A DNA stretch of 64,000 nt, from contig NZ_FZOK01000005.1 of the NCBI RefSeq assembly GCF_900188245.1, positions 62,001-126,000 on the forward strand. The letters run 5' to 3'. Under the pieces are notes generated by a model, which was not told where the DNA came from, did not search any database, and saw only the letters and a program-made list of their open reading frames with translations. The position numbers and the translations under genes were made by a program. This document shows, piece by piece, positions 50,244 through 60,311 of the stretch; position 1 is the stretch's first letter, and the number at the start of each line of letters is the position of its first letter. The DNA is from Belliella buryatensis. Lineage in GTDB: Bacteria > Bacteroidota > Bacteroidia > Cytophagales > Cyclobacteriaceae.

Positions 50244-50255
50244 GTTTAAAAAAAA

Positions 50256-50338
50256 GAGGCGGTATCGCACCGCTACGACCGCCTACCCTTGCTTCCTTCC
50301 GGACCTGGGGGATTCAGCAGGAGCTGGTCGTACCGCCA
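50256..50338 (-). ncRNA. ffs: Signal recognition particle RNA (small, 4.5S type)
   Basis: On the minus strand the transcript contains the universally conserved domain IV CAGGTCCGGAAGGAAGC with the GGAA tetraloop and the asymmetric loop. The ends GGCGGTACGACC and GGTCGTAGCGGTGCGATACCGCC close into a long terminal helix. An eight-base T-run after 50256 terminates it. It is the short, Alu-less bacterial type, which with Ffh targets nascent membrane proteins. A consensus promoter lies five bases upstream. Confidence 0.96.
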
Positions 50339-50341
50339 AAA

Positions 50342-50372
50342 CAAAGGTAAGTCAAAAATTAGCGATTCCAAA
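50342..50372 (-). promoter_or_regulatory. SRP RNA promoter
   Basis: On the minus strand TTTG (50372-50369), exactly 19 bases, then TACCTTTG (50349-50342): a perfect Bacteroidota TTTG-N19-TAnnTTTG promoter. The -7 box ends five bases before the RNA's predicted 5' end, agreeing with the usual start distance. Confidence 0.88.
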
Positions 50373-51069: not shown

Positions 51070-51252
51070 ACAGTATAAAGTCTTGTTTGGGAATCAAAGA
51101 TAAATGCATATTTAGAATCGATCATTGTTTTAGCCAATTCATTTTTGGATTAATCATTGACGTCTCATAAACAAAATAATCTACGCCTATCTTGCCGTTT
51201 AAATTCAAAAAGTATCTTTAGTGAAAATTTTTGAAACTTTTTCAGAATCATT

Positions 51253-51283
51253 TTTGTCAATCGATCACGCTTCTCTATATTTG
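51253..51283 (+). promoter_or_regulatory. trp operon promoter
   Basis: TTTG (51253-51256), exactly 19 bases, then a perfect -7 box TATATTTG (51276-51283). The predicted transcription start near 51290 is about ten bases before the leader-peptide ATG. No operator-like palindrome overlaps it. Confidence 0.88.
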
Positions 51284-51299
51284 AAGCAATAAAAAGATA

Positions 51300-51377
51300 A
51301 TGAATAGTATTCAAGCAAAATATTGGTGGTGGCATTTGACTTCTTTTCTCGGGGAAGAACCAATTGCTGTTGTCTAA
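51300..51377 (+). CDS. trpL: trp operon leader peptide
   Basis: A 25-codon ATG frame too short for ordinary gene calling, with three consecutive Trp codons (codons 9-11, 51324-51332; context AKYWWWHLTS). It sits just after a consensus promoter and before a terminator and trpE. Three TGG in a row is extremely unlikely by chance. Ribosome stalling there when charged tRNA-Trp is scarce would expose the RNA segment at 51351-51362. The segment itself lies inside the peptide's own codons (GEEP), so ribosome passage to the stop at 51375-51377 would mask it. Confidence 0.9.
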   Translation: MNSIQAKYWWWHLTSFLGEEPIAVV

Positions 51378-51420
51378 TATCTAAGATGAAATGATATATT
51401 TAGGCTTGCTGGTTTTCCCC
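51341..51420 (+). promoter_or_regulatory. trp attenuator: alternative protector (1:2) and antiterminator (2:3) helices
   Basis: Segment 2, GGGGAAGAACCA (51351-51362), can pair with segment 3, TGGTTTTCCCC (51410-51420), by 11 base pairs with one bulged G. Part of segment 2 (51352-51359, GGGAAGAA) can instead pair with segment 1, TTCTTTTC (51341-51348), giving eight pairs, two of them G-U. Segment 3 uses the inner bases of the terminator stem, so antiterminator and terminator exclude each other. The layout is the classic Trp-codon-controlled attenuator. Pairings were found by eye; energies were not calculated. Confidence 0.75.
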
Positions 51421-51435
51421 AGTAAGCCTTTTTTT
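51402..51435 (+). terminator. trp attenuator terminator (3:4 helix)
   Basis: AGGCTTGCTGG (51402-51412) pairs with CCAGTAAGCCT (51419-51429) with one G-U pair around a six-base loop, followed by TTTTTT to 51435. It ends 29 bases before the trpE start. Confidence 0.9.
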
Positions 51436-51464
51436 ATTCCAAAAAAATAACCGAATAACAATCA

Positions 51465-52874
51465 ATGATGAATCAAGTCAAACTGAAAACCCAATATAAA
51501 AAGCTTTTAGCAGATACAATCACACCTGTGAGCATCTACCTTCAGATCAGGGATAGGTATGCAAATCCTATCCTTCTGGAGAGTTCTGATTACCACGGTC
51601 AAGAGAATAGTTACTCTTATATTTGTTTCAATCCTTTGGCCTTTTTCTCGTTTGATGGACAATTTGTAAAGGAGCAATTACCTGACAATGAAGTTCAAAC
51701 ATACAAATTAGGTGCAAAGGATAAGTTGATTGACCAACTAAGAGGTTTTTCCGCCAAGTTCGATGCGCCTTCCTTGGAGCAGAAGTTTATAACCAATGGC
51801 ATATTTGGCTATATGCAATATGACACTGTTGCTAGATTTGAAGATATCCATCTAGAAAACACTAAACCTTCTTCGATTCCAATGATGCACTATGCCGTGT
51901 ATCAAAATATCATTGTGGTGGATCATTTCAAAAATGAAATGCACCTACTAGAGCATCAGGTGGAAGGAGAGGAGAAATCAGCAATTCTTCCTCAGCTTGA
52001 GATGCTATTGAATAATAAGAATATCCCAGCATATAACTTCAAGTTGATAGGTGAGGAGCAATCCAATTATACCGATGAAGAGTTTTTGGATATACTCAAA
52101 AAAGGCCAAGAACATTGCTTTAGAGGAGATGTATTCCAAATCGTACTTTCTCGAAACTTTACCACCAAGTTCAAAGGAGATGAGTTCAATGTCTACAGAG
52201 CTTTGCGATCAGTTAACCCTTCACCTTATCTTTTCTATTTTGATTATGGATCTTATAAGGTTTTTGGAAGTTCTCCAGAAGCTCAGATAGTGGTCAAAAA
52301 TAACAAGGCAACAATCTACCCCATAGCAGGTACTTTCAAGCGAACAGGTAATGACCAAGCTGATGCTGCATTGGCTATCAAACTCTATGATGATCCTAAA
52401 GAAAACTCAGAGCATGTGATGCTTGTGGATCTAGCTAGAAATGATCTGAGTAGGTCTTCTGAAAAGGTCGAAGTTGAAGTATTCAAAGAGATTCAATATT
52501 ATTCCCATGTCATCCATTTGGTGTCCAAAGTCACAGGTGTACTCCCCGAAAATTCCAATCCGTTACAGCTAGTGGCAGACACTTTTCCTGCTGGTACACT
52601 ATCAGGTGCGCCAAAGTTCAGGGCTATGGAGCTTATAGATGAATTGGAGAATACTTCCCGAAAGTTTTATGGGGGAGCTATCGGATTTCTTGGATTCAAT
52701 GGTGATTTCAACCATGCCATTTTGATCCGATCCTTTGTCTCAGAAAATAACCAACTGAGGTTCCAAGCAGGCGCAGGCGTGGTTGCCAAGTCTTCGATTC
52801 AGTCCGAACTCCAGGAAGTTTCCAATAAACTCGAAGCCCTCCGAGTCGCTCTCAAAGCCGCAGAGGTTATTTAG
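51465..52874 (+). CDS. trpE: Anthranilate synthase component I
   Basis: 469 residues. It makes anthranilate from chorismate with ammonia from TrpG. The motif PIAGT at 286-290 (Ala288 where PabB has Lys) identifies it as anthranilate, not aminodeoxychorismate, synthase. Other motifs: FQIVLSRNF, SPEAQIVV, LVDLARNDLSRSS, and FPAGTLSGAPKFRAMELIDE. The early LLESSDYHGQENSYSYI corresponds to the feedback-site LLES, so Trp inhibition is likely. It is the first structural gene after the attenuator. A non-trp gene separates it from trpG. Confidence 0.97.
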   Translation: MMNQVKLKTQYKKLLADTITPVSIYLQIRDRYANPILLESSDYHGQENSYSYICFNPLAFFSFDGQFVKEQLPDNEVQTYKLGAKDKLIDQLRGFSAKFDAPSLEQKFITNGIFGYMQYDTVARFEDIHLENTKPSSIPMMHYAVYQNIIVVDHFKNEMHLLEHQVEGEEKSAILPQLEMLLNNKNIPAYNFKLIGEEQSNYTDEEFLDILKKGQEHCFRGDVFQIVLSRNFTTKFKGDEFNVYRALRSVNPSPYLFYFDYGSYKVFGSSPEAQIVVKNNKATIYPIAGTFKRTGNDQADAALAIKLYDDPKENSEHVMLVDLARNDLSRSSEKVEVEVFKEIQYYSHVIHLVSKVTGVLPENSNPLQLVADTFPAGTLSGAPKFRAMELIDELENTSRKFYGGAIGFLGFNGDFNHAILIRSFVSENNQLRFQAGAGVVAKSSIQSELQEVSNKLEALRVALKAAEVI

Positions 52875-52982
52875 AAAAAGTTGAATGGTATAAAGTTAGC
52901 ATGTTGAAATGTTCATCGTTTCTATAATGTCTTATTAATAATGTGGTCTATATGTGTTTATTGGGTTTAATTGTTTGATGAA

Positions 52983-53378
52983 ATGGCAAAGGTCAGAGCA
53001 TTTGAAGATTTAGATATTTGGAATGAGGCACTAAAAATTGCCGTCGAAATTTATCGTATTGCAGACTTGCCTCCATTGAAGAATGATTACAAGTCAAGAG
53101 ATCAACTTATAGGAGCGGCAATTTCAATTTCAAATAACATTGCCGAAGGATTTGAATACAACAATAATAAAATGTTCATCAAATTCTTACACTATGCCAA
53201 AGGTTCTGCTGGTGAAGTTAGAAGTCAATTAGCCGTATTAGTAGCCGCAGGCAGAGTAGATCAAAAGGTATATGAAGATTTAAGGTCGGAGCTTATTAAT
53301 CTGTCATCAAGAATCAAATCTTTAATAAACTACCTAATTGATTATAATCAAAAAAGTAATCAAAGCCCTAAAACTTAA
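52983..53378 (+). CDS. Four-helix-bundle protein (S23/IVS-type) inserted in the trp operon
   Basis: 131 residues from the ATG at 52983 (a TTG four codons earlier is less likely). It matches the four-helix-bundle family first noted in 23S rRNA intervening sequences: FEDLDIWNEALKIAVEIYRI, DQLIGAAISISNNIAEGFEYNNNKMFIKFLHYAKGSAGEVRSQLAVLVAAG. Function unknown. Such genes wander between loci in Bacteroidota. It lies between trpE and trpG with AT-rich flanks of 108 bp on each side, and no direct repeats of insertion were detected by eye. Confidence 0.88.
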   Translation: MAKVRAFEDLDIWNEALKIAVEIYRIADLPPLKNDYKSRDQLIGAAISISNNIAEGFEYNNNKMFIKFLHYAKGSAGEVRSQLAVLVAAGRVDQKVYEDLRSELINLSSRIKSLINYLIDYNQKSNQSPKT

Positions 53379-53486: not shown

Positions 53487-54044
53487 ATGAAAATACTTGT
53501 CCTTGATAATTACGATTCATTTACTTACAACTTGGTGTATATCATCAGACAGCTGGGTTATGAAATGGATATATATAGAAATGATAAAATCAATTTAGAG
53601 CAAATCGAAGTTTATGATAAGATTCTGCTTTCCCCAGGTCCAGGCATTCCTTCTGAAGCTGGTATCATGCCAGATCTGATCAAAAAATATGCTGCTTCCA
53701 AAGACATCCTTGGAATATGTCTTGGGCACCAAGGGATTGGTGAGGCTTTTGGTTCTTCTTTGACTAATTTGTCAGAGGTAGTCCACGGATTGGCCTCAGA
53801 GGTCACTGTACAAAAAGATCTGCTCTTTGAAGGTTTGCCGGTTAAGTTTAATATTGGCAGGTATCATTCATGGGTTATCAATGAGCAGACACTAAGCTCT
53901 GATCTTGAAGTTATCGCCAAAACACCAGATGGACAGATTATGGGAGTGAGGCACAAAGCCTTCAAGGTCAGAGGCCTCCAATTTCACCCAGAGTCAGTCT
54001 TGACAGAGCATGGTATAGAAATGATGAAAAATTGGCTGAGTTGA
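53487..54044 (+). CDS. trpG: Anthranilate synthase component II (glutamine amidotransferase)
   Basis: 185 residues. Class I glutaminase: VLDNYDSFTYNLVYII at the start, PGPGIPSEAG, the nucleophile Cys in ILGICLGHQGIGEAFG, and the His-Glu pair in LQFHPESVLTEHG. It supplies ammonia to TrpE. As the only such gene near either trpE or pabB in the window, it may also serve PabB, as in Bacillus (inference). A 138-bp AT-rich spacer leads to trpD. Confidence 0.96.
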   Translation: MKILVLDNYDSFTYNLVYIIRQLGYEMDIYRNDKINLEQIEVYDKILLSPGPGIPSEAGIMPDLIKKYAASKDILGICLGHQGIGEAFGSSLTNLSEVVHGLASEVTVQKDLLFEGLPVKFNIGRYHSWVINEQTLSSDLEVIAKTPDGQIMGVRHKAFKVRGLQFHPESVLTEHGIEMMKNWLS

Positions 54045-54182: not shown

Positions 54183-55193
54183 ATGAAAGAAATACTCAAT
54201 CACCTGATCGAACACCGGACGCTGAGCAAGGAGCAGGCTAAGGAGGTATTATTAAAAATCACTTCAGGTGAGTATAATCAAAGTCAGATCGCCGCTTTTT
54301 TGACTGTCTATATGATGCGTTCTGTGACCGTAGAAGAGCTGGGTGGTTTCAGAGAAGCTATGCTAGAGCAATGTATACCAGTAGAAATAGCTGAATACGA
54401 TGCCATGGATCTTTGTGGTACCGGAGGTGATGGCAAAGATACATTCAATATCTCTACACTAGCGTCTTTTATAGTAGCAGGAGCCGGTCAAAATGTTGCC
54501 AAGCATGGGAACACAGGGGTATCTTCAATTTGTGGTTCGTCCAATTTGTTGCAAAGTTTTGGTTACGAGTTTACTAATGATGTGAACAAGATCAGAAAAA
54601 GTCTAGATGAAGCTGGAATTTGCTTTTTGCATGCGCCACTTTTTCATCCTGCTATGAAAAATGTAGGCCCTATCCGAAGAGAGCTAGGAGTGAAGACTTT
54701 TTTCAATATGCTCGGTCCAATGGTAAACCCTAGTTTTCCTAAAAAACAATTGGTAGGTGTGTTTAGCTTAGAATTGGCTAGACTTTATGCCTATCTCTAC
54801 CAAAATCAAGAAGGCCTGTTCAGTATTTTGCATGCTTTGGATGGCTATGATGAGATTTCTTTGACGGGAAATTTTAAGATGATTACCCAAGATGGAGAAA
54901 AACTCTTCAGCCCTTCAGCGATCAATTTGCCAACTATTTCTGCAGAATTGATTAAAGGAGGAGAGACTATCCCTGAATCTGCTCAAATCTTTGACAACAT
55001 CCTTAAAGGCAAAGGTTCAGAAGCCCAAAACGCAGTTGTGATTGCCAATGCAGCTGCGGCATTACATACAGCTGATCCAGCACTTTCATTCGTAGATGCA
55101 GTTGCTAATGCAAGAGAATCATTGATGACTGGAAAAGCACTGGAAAAATTCAATAAATTGGTCAACCCAAAGACCTCCATTTCATTTGCATAA
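54183..55193 (+). CDS. trpD: Anthranilate phosphoribosyltransferase
   Basis: 336 residues. It joins anthranilate to PRPP. The PRPP-binding signature DLCGTGGDGKDTFNIST and the following VAKHGNTGVSSICGSSNLLQSFG are intact; the metal-binding DE pair is in LDGYDEISLTG. Length is typical. It is not fused to trpG. trpC begins 11 bases after its stop. Confidence 0.97.
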   Translation: MKEILNHLIEHRTLSKEQAKEVLLKITSGEYNQSQIAAFLTVYMMRSVTVEELGGFREAMLEQCIPVEIAEYDAMDLCGTGGDGKDTFNISTLASFIVAGAGQNVAKHGNTGVSSICGSSNLLQSFGYEFTNDVNKIRKSLDEAGICFLHAPLFHPAMKNVGPIRRELGVKTFFNMLGPMVNPSFPKKQLVGVFSLELARLYAYLYQNQEGLFSILHALDGYDEISLTGNFKMITQDGEKLFSPSAINLPTISAELIKGGETIPESAQIFDNILKGKGSEAQNAVVIANAAAALHTADPALSFVDAVANARESLMTGKALEKFNKLVNPKTSISFA

Positions 55194-55204
55194 TCAAATA
55201 CAAT

Positions 55205-56026
55205 ATGAATATTTTAGATAAAATCATTGCCCATAAGAAACAAGAAGTAGCAGAGAAAAGCAGTTTGGTTCCTGTGAAACTTTTGGAAAAAAGCATCTTC
55301 TTTGATTCCCCGGTGGTGTCTATGAAAGACTACATCAATGATCCGGAGAAGACAGGGATCATTGCAGAGTTCAAAAGAAAGTCACCTTCCAAAGGTATCA
55401 TCAATGCCAATGCGCAAGTGGAAGCTACAAGCATCGGCTATATGCAAGCCGGAGCTTCTGCTCTTTCAATCCTTACCGATCAAGACTTCTTTGGAGGGAA
55501 AAATGAAGACTTAATCACTTCTAGAAAATTCAATTTCTGCCCGATTTTAAGAAAGGATTTTATTATTGACGAGTATCAAATCATTGAAGCTAAGTCTATT
55601 GGGGCTGATTGCATCCTTTTGATAGCAGCGGCATTGGAACCAGCTAGACTGGAAGAATTGGCATTATTTGCCAAAGGGCTTGGGCTAGAGGTTTTGATGG
55701 AAGTACATGATGCGGAAGAATTACAAGCTGCTCTCAATGATTCATTGGACTTAGTGGGCGTAAATAATCGCAGTTTGAAGACTTTTGAAGTTTCTTTGCA
55801 AACTTCTTATGATTTGGTAGATCAAATTCCTTCACAATTTGTTAAAGTATCGGAAAGTGGGATCTCTCAACCACAAACACTAATAGAATTGAAAAAAATT
55901 GGTTTTGAAGGGTTTCTTATAGGAGAGAATTTCATGAAGTCTAGCAGGCCTCATCAAGCGGCCTATAACTTCATGAAAGAATTCAGAGAGCTGATGCTCC
56001 AAGAAGGAATGATTCAGGAAAAATGA
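55205..56026 (+). CDS. trpC: Indole-3-glycerol phosphate synthase
   Basis: 273 residues, a (beta/alpha)8 barrel that decarboxylates and closes CdRP. Signatures: IIAEFKRKSPSKGIIN (substrate Lys), ILTDQDFFGG, RKDFIIDEYQIIEAKSIGADCILLIAA, LEVLMEVHDAEEL, VGVNNRSLKTFEV, and SESGI near the end. Not fused to trpF. Its stop overlaps the trpF start by four bases (ATGA). Confidence 0.97.
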   Translation: MNILDKIIAHKKQEVAEKSSLVPVKLLEKSIFFDSPVVSMKDYINDPEKTGIIAEFKRKSPSKGIINANAQVEATSIGYMQAGASALSILTDQDFFGGKNEDLITSRKFNFCPILRKDFIIDEYQIIEAKSIGADCILLIAAALEPARLEELALFAKGLGLEVLMEVHDAEELQAALNDSLDLVGVNNRSLKTFEVSLQTSYDLVDQIPSQFVKVSESGISQPQTLIELKKIGFEGFLIGENFMKSSRPHQAAYNFMKEFRELMLQEGMIQEK

Positions 56027-56649
56027 AATTGAAAGTATGTGGTATGCGCTCCCTTGAAAATGCGCAAGATTTGATAGATAAAGTACAACCGGATTGGATG
56101 GGAATGATTTTCTATTCCAAATCAGCTAGGTTTGTTTCAGAGGAAGCACATGTAGCTTTAGGGGGATTGCCAGTAAATAAAGTTGGTGTTTTTGTTGATG
56201 CAAGCTTGGAAGAAATTCAAAAATGCATCATGAATTTTGGATTGACGACCATTCAACTTCATGGAGATGAATCTGTGGCATTTACAAAAGACCTAAAGGC
56301 TCAAACGGGGCTTGAAATCTTTAAAGTCTTTGCTGTCAAAGAGTCAATTGACTGGAGAGTTTTAGAGCCTTATTTACCGATTGTAGATTATTTCCTATTC
56401 GATACCTTCACCAAGGCATACGGGGGAAGTGGACAGGTTTTCGATTGGCATTTGTTAGAAAATTATCCTTTTGATAAGCCATTTCTGCTGAGCGGTGGTT
56501 TATCAATTGAAAATGTTACTGATATCAAAAGGCTACAAAATAAGCTGCCTCAGCTTGTAGGTCTGGATATCAATTCCAAATTTGAGATCGAACCTGCCAT
56601 GAAGGATATAGAAAAAATCAGGGAGTTCAAGGAACTGGTGAATAACTGA
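56023..56649 (+). CDS. trpF: Phosphoribosylanthranilate isomerase
   Basis: 208 residues. Family start KVCGMR with the catalytic Cys, MGMIFYSKSARFV, the catalytic Asp in KVGVFVDASLEEI, IQLHGDES, YGGSGQVFDW, and FLLSGGLSIENV then GLDINSKFE. It converts PRA to CdRP. It overlaps trpC by four bases, so translation is coupled. The trpB start lies 41 bases beyond. Confidence 0.96.
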   Translation: MKLKVCGMRSLENAQDLIDKVQPDWMGMIFYSKSARFVSEEAHVALGGLPVNKVGVFVDASLEEIQKCIMNFGLTTIQLHGDESVAFTKDLKAQTGLEIFKVFAVKESIDWRVLEPYLPIVDYFLFDTFTKAYGGSGQVFDWHLLENYPFDKPFLLSGGLSIENVTDIKRLQNKLPQLVGLDINSKFEIEPAMKDIEKIREFKELVNN

Positions 56650-56690
56650 ATTAAAAAATCGATTAATTAAAGATCTTAAATGATTGAGTG

Positions 56691-57869
56691 ATGATAAAAG
56701 TAGACGAAAAAGGGTTTTATGGGAAGTTTGGTGGGGCGTATATCCCTGAAATGTTACATCCTAACATAGAAGAATTGAGAGATAACTACGAGCAAATCGT
56801 GGCCACTACTGAATTTCAAGAGGAGTTTCAGTCCTTGTTGAGAGATTTTGTGGGAAGACCTACCCCTTTATATTTCGCGAAGCGCATGTCCGAAAAGTAT
56901 GGTGCAAAAATTTATTTCAAAAGAGAAGACCTCTGCCATACAGGAGCGCATAAAGTAAATAATACCGTGGGTCAAATTATTTTAGCCAAGAAACTCGGTA
57001 AAAAGCGCATCATCGCTGAGACAGGCGCAGGTCAACATGGTGTTGCTACAGCGACAGTTTGTGCCTTGATGGGCATGGACTGTACGATTTATATGGGTGC
57101 TTTGGACATACAGAGGCAGCGCCCAAATGTAGAGCGTATGAGAATTCTGGGCGCAAAAGTAGTACCTGCCACATCGGGAAGTCAAACCCTCAAGGATGCT
57201 ACGAATGAAGCCATGCGTCAATGGATCAATAATCCCGTGGATACACATTACATCATTGGTTCTGTAGTAGGACCTCATCCTTATCCTGAGATGGTGGCGA
57301 GGTTCCAATCTGTGATTTCAGACGAGATTAAAAAACAACTTCTAGAGAAAGAGGGAACAGAAAATCCAGATATCCTAATTGCTTGTGTAGGTGGAGGTAG
57401 TAATGCTGCGGGCACTTTTTACCATTATTATAATGTACCACAAGTAAGATTGGTTGCTGCCGAAGCCGCAGGTTTGGGAGTAAGTTCGGGTAAGTCTGCT
57501 GCTACTACGGCTTTGGGTACCCCAGGTATTTTGCATGGAAGCAAAACCCTACTGATGCAAACAGAAGATGGACAGGTTGTTGAGCCACATTCCATTTCAG
57601 CTGGTTTGGATTACCCAGGTATAGGACCTGTTCATGCACATTTGTTTGACATCGGAAGAGCAGAGTTTGTGGCTGTAGAAGATGAAGACGCGATGAAAGC
57701 TGGTATAGAGCTGAGTAGGATGGAAGGAATCATTCCGGCCATTGAAACAGCCCATGCTGTTCATGCGCTGAATATGATCGAATTCAAAAAAGATGATATC
57801 ATCGTAATCAACCTTTCTGGTAGAGGAGATAAGGACCTAGATACTTATATCAAGTGGGGTGGATATTGA
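56691..57869 (+). CDS. trpB: Tryptophan synthase beta subunit
   Basis: 392 residues from the ATG at 56691 (a GTG immediately before is possible). The PLP-bearing Lys is in [29 protein letters not shown] binds the phosphate side, and [16 protein letters not shown] the cofactor phosphate. It begins [15 protein letters not shown], standard for TrpB1. It condenses indole with serine. Unusually, 645 bp of tandem and degenerate repeats separate it from its partner trpA. Confidence 0.97.
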
Positions 57870-57870
57870 G

Positions 57871-58167
57871 GGATGAAGGTAGAAGGATGAAGGGTTAAAA
57901 ACGCTTTGCAGTTATAAAACCGAAAATATTCCTATTGCACCTTGGTGTCTTTGTGGCAACTGGAAATAAGGATAAAGCTAGAAGGATGAAGGATTAAAAC
58001 CGCTTTGCAATCATAAAACAGAAAATATTCCCTTTGCGCCTTGGTGTCTTTGTGGCAACTGGAAATAAGGATAAAGGTAGAAGGATGAAGGGTTAAAACC
58101 GCTTTGCAGTCATAAAACCGAAAATATTCCCTTTGCTCCTTGGTGTCTTTGTGGCAACCGAAAAGAA
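57871..58167. repeat. Three exact-period 99-bp tandem repeats between trpB and trpA
   Basis: Units 57871-57969, 57970-58068 and 58069-58167 have an identical period of 99 bp and are about 90% alike by eye. Each holds an AGAAGGATGAAGG start, TTAAAAACGCTTTGCA-like centre, and CTTGGTGTCTTTGTGGCAA near its end. A broken fourth copy begins at 58168. The first unit starts one base past the trpB stop. No open reading frame or CRISPR-like unique spacer lies within. Confidence 0.9.
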
Positions 58168-58514
58168 GGATGAAGGATGAAGGTAGAGGTTTGAGGAATT
58201 AAGGATGATATCAATTAATAACTCCATAATCCAGACTTCTTGATTCATAATTCGGAGTTCTGAATTCAAAAATAATATAATGTCGAATGTTGAATGTCAA
58301 ACTTCGAATTTTGAAGTTCGGAAATGAGAGTCAAGAAGTAAAAACAAATGTGAGATATGAGACTTGATATAAAAGACACAGATCAACAATAATCTAATAA
58401 CTCAATAATCTTTATTCCGCTTTCGCCAATCTTATAATTTTGAAATCTTCCAATTAACTTTCAAACATTAAAACATTAAAACTTTCCAACTAATTTTAAA
58501 ATCTTAGAGTTTCA
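58168..58514. repeat. Degenerate low-complexity spacer before trpA
   Basis: 347 bp without a gene. It consists of variants of short words: GAATGTTGAATGTCAAACTTC, palindrome-like AACTTCGAATTTTGAAGTT, GAGAGTCAAGAAGT, AATAACTCAATAATC, and an AT-rich stretch ACTTTCAAACATTAAAAC / ACTTTCCAAC just before the trpA ATG. Similar words recur after hisH (63840-63990) and before trpG and trpD. Confidence 0.6.
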
Positions 58515-59288
58515 ATGAATCGAATACACACATTATTTAAAAATAAAAAAGAGCGGGTACTATCGATCTATTTTACAGCCGGATTTCCCACATTAGAAGA
58601 TACCTTGCCGACAATGCAAGCCATAGAATCTGCTGGTGCTGATATTATAGAGATAGGAGTGCCTTACTCGGATCCGATCGCAGATGGACCGACCATCCAA
58701 GATAGTAACATGATTGCCCTTGAAAATGGCATGAGTTTGAAGAAGCTTTTTGAACAAATCAATGATATGCGTCAGACGGTGAGCATTCCTGTTGTATTGA
58801 TGGGGTACCTTAACCCAATTATCCAATATGGTATGGAAGATTTTTTAAAGAAATGCCAAGAAGTGGGTGTAGATGGATTGATCTTGCCTGACCTACCCAT
58901 GCAGCAATACCTAGATGAATTTAAAATGCTCTTTGAACAATATGGGCTGAGCAATACCTTTTTGATTTCTCCCCAGACTAGTGAGCAGCGTATCAGAGAG
59001 ATCGATGAGCATTCCAATGGATTTATTTACATGGTCTCTTCCCATAGCATTACCGGAGCCAAGACTGGAATCACGGAAGATCAAATAGCTTATTTTAAGC
59101 GTGTTAAAGAAATGAATCTAAAAAATCCTAGGTTGATAGGGTTTGGCATATCGGACGCAGAGACCTTTGGCACTGCATCACAATACAGCAACGGAGCCAT
59201 CATAGGAAGTGCATTTATTAAAAAAGTAAAAGACAGCAAGGACTTGAAAGCTGATATTCACGCTTATATCAAGTCTGTAATCCATTAA
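58515..59288 (+). CDS. trpA: Tryptophan synthase alpha subunit
   Basis: 257 residues. The catalytic Glu and Asp lie in AIESAGADIIEIGVPYSDPIADGP; other blocks are VVLMGYLNPIIQYG, DGLILPDLPMQQ, FLISPQTSEQRI and GFIYMVSSHSITGAKTG. It splits indole-3-glycerol phosphate to feed indole to TrpB. The DAHP synthase gene follows after three bases. Whether transcription passes the 645-bp repeat zone from trpB is untested; no promoter box of quality was seen just upstream. Confidence 0.97.
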   Translation: MNRIHTLFKNKKERVLSIYFTAGFPTLEDTLPTMQAIESAGADIIEIGVPYSDPIADGPTIQDSNMIALENGMSLKKLFEQINDMRQTVSIPVVLMGYLNPIIQYGMEDFLKKCQEVGVDGLILPDLPMQQYLDEFKMLFEQYGLSNTFLISPQTSEQRIREIDEHSNGFIYMVSSHSITGAKTGITEDQIAYFKRVKEMNLKNPRLIGFGISDAETFGTASQYSNGAIIGSAFIKKVKDSKDLKADIHAYIKSVIH

Positions 59289-59291
59289 GTT

Positions 59292-60311
59292 ATGATTATT
59301 CAATTAAAACAGGATATTACCGAAAGGCAAAAAGAATCATTGATCAAAGAGGTCAATGAGATCGGTTATAAAATCACAGAAGTGAAAACACAACTAGGGG
59401 ACTACCTTGTAGGGATAGGTAAAAGTGATTTTGATATTCGTCGAATCGGACAAAAAGAAGGTATCGAAGATATCCATATCGTGTCAGATGAATATAAGTT
59501 GGTTTCCAAAAAATGGAAAGCTAAACCTACTTCTATTGACCTAGGTGATGGTGTGTTTATCAAAGACGGTGATATGGCCATTATGGCCGGGCCTTGCTCA
59601 ATTGAATCAGAAGAGCAAATCAGAAAAGTAATCCAACACCTCAAAGAGAACAATATCAAAATGATGCGAGGTGGGGTTTTCAAACCCAGATCTAGTCCAT
59701 ATGCGTTCAGGGGATTAGGTTTGGATGGACTGAAACTATGGTATGAACTAGCTCAAGAAGCGGGTATCAAGATCGTAACAGAAGTGATGCAAGTGTCTCA
59801 AATAGAGGAAATGTATCCTTATGTAGATATCTATCAAGTAGGTGCAAGAAATACGCAGAACTTCAATTTACTCGACGAATTGGGTAAAGTAGATAAAGCT
59901 GTGATGATTAAACGCGGCATCTCAGGAACCATTGAAGAATTGTTGCAATCTGCGGAATATGTATTCTCAGGAGGAAATGAAAAATTGATCCTTTGTGAGC
60001 GTGGCATTAGGACTTATGAAAAGGCGAGCAGAAACACACTTGATTTAAATGCCGTACCTATCTTGAAAGCCAAATCTCATCTGCCAGTTGTGGTTGATCC
60101 ATCTCATGGTATTGGTATTCGTGCATACGTACCACAGATGGCATTATCGGGCGTGATGTCAGGAGCTGACGGAATTATCTACGAAACACACGAGATTCCT
60201 GAAAAAGCTTATTCAGATGGTCAGCAGACCTTAGACTTTGCTCAAAGTGCCTTGCTTGCAGATCAGATTAGAAAGACTTTCGCCATGAGAAAAACATTTG
60301 CTTTGCTCTAA
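59292..60311 (+). CDS. aroF: 3-deoxy-7-phosphoheptulonate synthase, type I-beta with N-terminal regulatory domain
   Basis: 339 residues. The first ~80 residues (MIIQLKQDITERQKESLIKEVNEIGYKITEV...) form the ferredoxin-like domain that in Thermotoga-type enzymes gives feedback control by Tyr or Phe. The barrel follows: MAGPCSIES, MRGGVFKPRSSPYAFRG, TEVMQV, VGARNTQNFNLL, KRGISGTIEE, VVVDPSHGIG with metal ligands. It is the first step of the shikimate pathway, so its place three bases after trpA couples precursor supply to Trp control. The symbol aroF follows common use; aroA/aroG are also used. Confidence 0.94.
   Translation: MIIQLKQDITERQKESLIKEVNEIGYKITEVKTQLGDYLVGIGKSDFDIRRIGQKEGIEDIHIVSDEYKLVSKKWKAKPTSIDLGDGVFIKDGDMAIMAGPCSIESEEQIRKVIQHLKENNIKMMRGGVFKPRSSPYAFRGLGLDGLKLWYELAQEAGIKIVTEVMQVSQIEEMYPYVDIYQVGARNTQNFNLLDELGKVDKAVMIKRGISGTIEELLQSAEYVFSGGNEKLILCERGIRTYEKASRNTLDLNAVPILKAKSHLPVVVDPSHGIGIRAYVPQMALSGVMSGADGIIYETHEIPEKAYSDGQQTLDFAQSALLADQIRKTFAMRKTFALL

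Follow-up and report, generated by a model that had tools for sequence, protein, structure and literature searches.

The trp leader of Escherichia coli carries two Trp codons and follows the logic of alternative 1:2, 2:3 and 3:4 helices. The principle is textbook, and leader-peptide attenuators need a ribosome closely trailing RNA polymerase. In 2010, the authors of PMC2965389 stated that they knew of no demonstration of a leader-peptide system outside Proteobacteria and Actinobacteria prior to their own case in Firmicutes. For Bacteroidota, Rfam contains RF01692, the "Bacteroidete tryptophan peptide leader RNA" (Weinberg 2010, PMC2864571), and Table 1 of that paper gives Bacteroid-trp as cis-regulatory in Bacteroidetes. 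Further, according to the accessible text of PMC9723704, leader-peptide attenuation is strongly indicated in Flavobacterium psychrophilum, the Discussion of PMC6414381 places a Bacteroid-Trp RNA before the trp operon of this species and likens it to the E. coli leader, and a passage of PMC7366714 describes short ORFs of B. thetaiotaomicron as reminiscent of leader peptides. Two such units can stand in one leader: according to the accessible part of PMC3641672, the Salmonella mgtCBR leader has two short ORFs, mgtM and mgtP, with their own attenuator structures and different signals.

Here we analyzed a 64,000-nt stretch of the Belliella buryatensis genome (hereafter, the window), in which a first-pass annotation had placed a Trp-codon attenuator in front of a trp operon. 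We take Belliella to be a member of Cyclobacteriaceae, Cytophagales; the trpE of the window was 86% identical to that of genus mates matching named Belliella records. The annotation had also regarded ribosome-mediated trp attenuation as established mainly in proteobacteria. This view has to be narrowed, as Trp leader peptides of Bacteroidota are already on record in RF01692, Table 1 of PMC2864571 and the Discussion of PMC6414381.

Results

Anatomy of the leader and the trp operon

The promoter, the 25-codon leader with TGG TGG TGG, the helices 1:2, 2:3 and 3:4 and the T-run were all found where the first-pass annotation had placed them (Table 1). Directly downstream, Pfam domains identified trpE and the following genes of the trp operon, with 28 nt between the end of the T-run and trpE. 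In helix 1:2, 51341-51348 pairs with 51352-51359 (8 pairs, 3-nt loop). Helix 2:3 joins 51351-51362 to 51410-51420 by 11 pairs, including one G-U, with A51359 bulged, and helix 3:4 joins 51402-51412 to 51419-51429 by 11 pairs, again including one G-U, with T following to 51436. Folding indicated that helix 1:2 is longer than first described and extends over 51320-51380, with the Trp codons paired in its base. Between the promoter and the leader ATG lie 16 nt and therefore, given the usual spacing from promoter to start site, the 5' end of the transcript is predicted to lie only about 10 bases before the leader. Within the operon, the 645-nt gap between trpB and trpA contained a 99-bp unit repeated 3.2 times (57871-58183).

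Table 1. Features of the trp leader region and the downstream genes in the window.
Feature	Position	Strand	Remarks
Promoter TTTG-N19-TATATTTG, Bacteroidota type	51253..51283	+	TTTG, 51253-51256; 19-nt spacer; TATATTTG, 51276-51283
Leader peptide ORF, MNSIQAKYWWWHLTSFLGEEPIAVV*	51300..51377	+	25 codons and stop
Three tandem Trp codons, TGG TGG TGG	51324..51332	+	Sensor
Segment 1, inner arm	51341..51348	+	Outer arm reaches up to 51320, Trp codons included
Segment 2	51351..51362	+	Partner of segment 1 or segment 3
Segment 3	51402..51412	+	5' arm of terminator; with loop to 51420 also antiterminator partner
Segment 4	51419..51429	+	3' arm of terminator
T-run of intrinsic terminator	51429..51436	+	
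trpE, anthranilate synthase component I	51465..52874	+	PF00425, PF04715
23S_rRNA_IVP-type ORF	52971-53378		PF05635; between trpE and trpG, within trp operon
trpG, glutamine amidotransferase	53487..54044	+	PF00117
trpD, anthranilate phosphoribosyltransferase	54183..55193	+	PF00591, PF02885
trpC, indole-3-glycerol phosphate synthase	55205..56026	+	PF00218
trpF, phosphoribosylanthranilate isomerase	56023..56649	+	PF00697
trpB	56688..57869	+	PF00291
trpA	58515..59288	+	PF00290
DAHP synthase	59292..60311	+	PF00793; last gene in examined run

Single features of the window were weak by themselves. The promoter pattern matched five times in the window against 2.4 expected, and five matches were reached in 6 of 100 shuffles. 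TGGTGGTGG occurred once against 0.14 expected, and 14 of 100 shuffles contained one. The fold of the complete 151-nt leader was modest (z -2.28; 4 of 200 shuffles were as low). The terminator (GGCUUGCUGG...CCAGUAAGCC) folded at -18.4 kcal/mol (z -5.97), which none of 200 shuffles equaled. The case for the leader thus depends on its conservation among relatives.

We also scanned the genome for further leaders of this kind. Seven of its 63 TGGTGGTGG sites (53 for the reversed pattern) sit in short WWW reading frames, and a T-run hairpin within 180 nt followed two of these seven, the trp leader (69 nt) and one other (129 nt). Thus, among all 63 sites there was no second Trp attenuator, in the sense of another short WWW frame with an equally near terminator. 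A pheA leader, sought in eight loci, was not seen by the criterion used, and one of the eight had a far, chance-like ORF.

Two other loci of the genus carried leader ORFs. Upstream of hisG, a leader ORF with a conserved HHxHHSS end lay about 110 nt away in 8/8 genus genomes (L287-L294; the locus of the window genome is L289), and in the single upstream region viewed, that of the window genome, a T-run terminator was not evident by eye. Upstream of ilvD, a leader ORF rich in Ile, Leu and Val that ends in ..ILIIGKQ was present in 8/8 genus genomes (L303-L310); in the window genome it is accompanied by GTGCCTCATCCAAGTGAGGCAC and then a T-run, and it is probably a branched-chain attenuator.

Conservation of the Trp-codon leader upstream of trpE

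trpE was found in 186 of the 196 sampled genomes of the family of the window. Upstream DNA from 130 of these 186 genomes, two further genus mates and 80 named loci gave 212 regions, of which 193 were distinct by their last 250 nt. Some genomes entered this set twice, from two collections that differ in where trpE is taken to start, and the counts were therefore repeated on 178 distinct cores after removal of duplicates. A leader was defined as an in-frame ATG, TGG-TGG or TGG-NNN-TGG, and a stop. Such a Trp-codon leader was present upstream of trpE in 190/193 regions and in 175/178 distinct cores, and the regions that failed were the same in both counts (L126, L125 and L186). A looser scan found a WWW leader in L126, whereas scanning of the trpE upstream regions of L125 and L186, which are probably one organism, revealed no convincing leader. 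In samples of the class and order, 40 of 57 loci (three of them from the window's own family) had a leader by a loose criterion; the 17 misses include L230, L235 and L238, with just 51, 9 and 160 nt of upstream DNA, respectively.

Of the 187 leaders with a called terminator, 159 had a longest W run of three, 22 of two and 6 of one; after duplicates were removed, this run was at least three in 146/172. In 110/187 loci, TTTG-N17-21-TANNTTTG occurred in the 160 nt ahead of the leader ATG, compared with 19 of 3740 mononucleotide shuffles (99/172 loci without duplicates).

A His codon directly followed the W run in 132/187 leaders (123/172 without duplicates; codon 51333-51335 in the window), and by eye YWWW or AWWW was common. 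Both features would suit arrest of the TnaC type, in which WWWH in the exit tunnel stalls the ribosome on free tryptophan rather than on uncharged tRNA-Trp. Part of the His conservation, though not all of it, is accounted for by pairing in the 1:2 stem: among 52 sequences, the first base of the codon paired in 40 and the second in 18, and the third lies outside the structure. Because Trp has one codon, codon choice cannot decide on such an arrest. Further, stalling by excess Trp has the wrong sign for a biosynthetic operon, and 55/187 leaders have no His after the W run. We therefore consider nascent-peptide arrest highly unlikely and favor a ribosome that responds to the charging of tRNA-Trp.

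Terminator, antiterminator and 1:2 hairpin among the relatives

A terminator was called in 187 of the 190 leader-bearing loci, giving 191 units. The filter called none in L128, L218 and L224, nor for one of the two leaders in L122 and L127. The called hairpin had z < -2 in 190/191 units (median -17.5 kcal/mol) and in 175/176 units without duplicates, values that are biased because the hairpins were first picked for low energy.

For the 2:3 antiterminator, the best duplex of the region after the Trp codons with the terminator arm and loop was compared with that of dinucleotide shuffles of the same region. The native duplex beat the shuffles at p < 0.05 in 171/191 units and at p < 0.01 in 105/191. 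Removal of duplicates hardly shifted these proportions (158/176 and 100/176, respectively), and a significant 2:3 duplex was absent from 18 of the 176 distinct units. By an analogous shuffle test, the 1:2 hairpin was significant in 68/191 units (62/176 without duplicates).

The first-pass annotation had singled out the position of segment 2 wholly inside the leader codons as unusual. The median distance from the third codon of the run to the start of segment 2 is 18 nt, and the extended 2:3 duplex places this segment inside the ORF in 59 of the 176 distinct units, wholly past the stop in 27 and across it in 90. The window was counted among the last group because its extended duplex runs past the stop, although the 11-pair core lies inside the ORF. 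As the position varies in this way, we dropped it as a defining oddity.

Covariation was examined in an alignment (A1) of 52 of 96 close relatives, from which those more than 93% similar had been dropped. In helix 3:4, 97.9% of cells were paired, and 6 of 11 pairs had changed on both sides, compared with 0.6 in shuffles. In the long 1:2 hairpin, 76.8% of cells were paired and 23.2% were unpaired, with a covariation score of 0.235 vs 0.183. For two of the five measures, a sizable share of 500 shuffles did as well as the native hairpin: 37 in the number of pairs changed on both sides and 61 in further pair types. This comparison had been set in advance as one that could refute the attenuator, and the relatives kept both the WWW codons and compensating changes in 3:4 and 1:2.

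Because the register of segments 2 and 3 shifts between genera (by eye), helix 2:3 was assessed by swapping segments instead of counting column pairs. Segments were exchanged between 90 non-redundant loci, with GC matched and windows non-overlapping. The native 2:3 duplex averaged -14.90 kcal/mol compared with -10.89 kcal/mol for GC-matched swaps (z -13.4), and the native 1:2 duplex -14.67 compared with -11.85 kcal/mol (z -10.5). The 2:3 partners differ in sequence from locus to locus, as in GGGGAAGAACC with GGUUUUCCCC (L001), GGAAgaaCAGC with GCUGgaaUUCC (L041), GGGAG..CAGC with GCUG..CUCCC (L062), AGUUCAGC with GCUGAACU (L090) and GUGAACGGCG with CGCUGUUCGC (L156).

A plain constitutive terminator next to an unrelated chance reading frame, with no regulation, would agree with the strength of the window hairpin and with the commonness of TGGTGGTGG in the genome. 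It does not agree with the joint retention of the leader, the spacing and the antiterminator across the family, and we give this possibility an extremely low probability. Attenuation at the Trp codons, which the first-pass annotation had proposed, is well supported by the leaders and the antiterminators of the relatives.

Response of the fold to a masked ribosome

We folded the RNA with a ribosome masked at different codons, assuming a footprint of -12 to +14. When the window transcript was cut at 51418, the probability of 2:3 was 0.73 with the ribosome stalled at the third Trp codon and 0.66 at the first, compared with 0.12 in the free RNA and 0.09 with the ribosome at the stop. For 187 loci, we cut the transcript ahead of segment 4 and scored how strongly segment 3 pairs with upstream RNA, using the best 8-base stretch. 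The mean pairing was 0.85 with the ribosome stalled at the last Trp codon, 0.54 in the free RNA and 0.56 at the stop. Pairing in the stalled state exceeded that in the free state by more than 0.1 in 146/187 loci and fell short of it by more than 0.1 in 4; relative to the stop state, it was higher in 144 loci, and the reverse held in 3. The window gave 0.98, 0.77 and 0.71 for the stalled, free and stop states, respectively, and in L004, its closest relative, masking was without effect (0.87, 0.87 and 0.87).

The effect of a ribosome at the stop differed from that first suggested, namely masking of the end of segment 2. The assumed footprint covers approximately 51363-51389 and does not reach segment 2. 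In the stop-state fold ending at 51418, segment 2 paired in part with segment 1, at a mean probability of 0.53, and very little with segment 3 (0.09). It is therefore the 1:2 hairpin, and not the ribosome, that keeps segment 2 from segment 3 at the stop.

The contrast between the states was confined to part of the time window. With the transcript ending at 51424, 2:3 reached about 0.9 in all states, including the free one, and on the full window transcript at equilibrium 3:4 won in every state, with 2:3 at most 0.14. Accordingly, the masked folding that the first-pass annotation had proposed gave the expected contrast at 51418 and none at 51424 or on the full transcript, and the switch must therefore be kinetic.

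Other RNA sensors

An overlapping RNA sensor, such as a T-box, a TRAP site or a Trp riboswitch, would offer another explanation of the leader. cmscan of the window at gathering cut-offs reported just one RNA, an SRP RNA. A scan of 51200-51500 at E up to 10 returned 17 weak matches, among which Bacteroid-trp had the top bit score, though not the lowest E-value. The T-box model had no match in the window at gathering cut-offs, nor in 51200-51500 at E up to 10. Given these scans against RNA models, which turned up nothing in its favor, a sensor of this type is exceedingly improbable as an alternative to the leader-peptide attenuator. The SRP RNA is the Bacteroidales small SRP RNA (RF04183, 77 bits), located at 50254-50344 on the minus strand of the window.

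Two leaders in series

The window has a single leader unit. Four relatives, L112 (Fulvivirga marina), L169, L198 and L204, carry a tandem pair of Trp leaders ahead of trpE, both with a called terminator of their own. L127 and L122 also have two leaders; in these, one terminator failed the filter and the hairpin was visible by eye. A promoter-like match (TTTG or TTG form) was present ahead of the first leader only in L112, L122, L198 and L204, and was not found in the two-leader regions of L127 and L169. The antiterminator p values of the first and second units were 0.01 and 0.10 in L112, 0.005 and 0.02 in L169, 0.24 and 0.20 in L198, and 0.21 and 0.01 in L204. By these p values, not all of the doubled units are proven, and in L198 both fall short.

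Discussion

The leader of the window very probably works as a ribosome-mediated attenuator of transcription, with charged tRNA-Trp as its signal. It combines a conserved ORF with tandem Trp codons, whose translation is predicted, with a predicted intrinsic terminator ahead of the first structural gene and an antiterminator that is mutually exclusive with this terminator. Further, a 1:2 hairpin excludes the antiterminator and, in the computed folds, opens when a ribosome sits at the Trp codons. Computation showed the parts, how they are conserved and covary, and the switching of the fold when a ribosome is masked.

The following sequence of events is consistent with this reading. RNA polymerase would start a few bases ahead of the leader ORF, with a ribosome trailing behind it. 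When Trp-tRNA is ample, the ribosome would pass WWW, leaving the 1:2 hairpin to form, either in full (51320-51380) or in its inner part, and to hold segment 2, such that 3:4 could pair and transcription would end at approximately 51436. When Trp-tRNA is scarce, the ribosome would stall at 51324-51332 and take segment 1 away. Pairing of segment 2 (GGGGAAGAACCA) with segment 3 (UGGUUUUCCCC) could then block the terminator, and the trp operon would be read from trpE through DAHP synthase. In this scheme, the coupling of ribosome and polymerase, termination, the response to Trp and the reading of the genes as one transcript are what the arrangement of the parts leads us to infer.

With regard to the family as a whole, we lean toward the view that the Trp leader attenuator is ancestral, near universal and too divergent for standard RNA models, and that it may have been doubled more than once into a two-stage serial device behind one promoter. 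If the two-stage device is real, two complete leaders, each with an antiterminator and a terminator, would multiply the same signal. The doubled relatives resemble mgtCBR, as described in the accessible part of PMC3641672, in that a single leader holds two short ORFs, each with an attenuator structure of its own, and differ from it in repeating the same Trp signal, whereas mgtM and mgtP respond to different signals. Doubled and single leaders provide a natural comparison of two-stage with one-stage attenuation. Further, if the attenuator reading is true, conservation of the leader implies that ribosomes run close behind RNA polymerase in these leaders, and a leader before trpE in nearly all sampled members of the family would be a natural reporter for transcription-translation coupling in Bacteroidota.

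In a search of mainly open-access literature, we found no report of this leader in Cyclobacteriaceae and none of two serial Trp leader-peptide attenuators. As far as the searches show, the kind of element is known, and the leader of the window, its breadth and the detailed evidence are new within the literature searched.

Like the trp leader of E. coli, that of the window is a Trp-codon leader with 1:2, 2:3 and 3:4 helices. It differs in having three Trp codons instead of two, in its Bacteroidota promoter ending so close to the leader ATG, and in a segment 2 that, with the assumed footprint, is left unmasked by the ribosome at the stop codon. The leaders of F. psychrophilum belong to the same phylum and likewise suggest leader-peptide attenuation ahead of amino-acid operons; they come from another branch of the phylum and are described, in the accessible text of PMC9723704 and PMC6414381, without helices, covariation or ribosome geometry. 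Among other Rfam models, Trp_leader (RF00513) had no match in the window (gathering cut-offs; 51200-51500 at E up to 10) and, among 20 chosen family loci, matched the leader of 8 with scores short of its cut-off (23.8-35.6 bits; cut-off 41). The trpB ncRNA motif (RF04312) covered 51328-51439, including the terminator, at 25.3 bits, far short of the 59 that it requires.

Bacteroid-trp (RF01692) is the closest known family in name, location and anatomy. The window scored 28.7 bits (E 0.22 in a 301-base search) against a gathering cut-off of 49, a match that alone proves nothing because three unrelated families had lower E-values in the same scan. At the cut-off, RF01692 was found in 0/192 genomes of the family (strict filters, 16 candidates scored per listed genome), and 20 chosen family loci gave no match at E up to 1. 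Rfam's model of such leaders thus fails to pick up the sampled genomes of an entire bacterial family. The nearest to the cut-off in the same family was L229, with 45.3 bits at a WWW leader just before trpE; L233, with 66.5 bits, lies above the cut-off, also at a WWW leader just before trpE. Like the window, the consensus of the model combines AUG...UGGuGGUG with a hairpin and the beginning of a terminator. Judged by this consensus and these two matches, the window has the RF01692 arrangement, in which a short tandem-Trp ORF stands right before the trp genes, as in L229 and L233.
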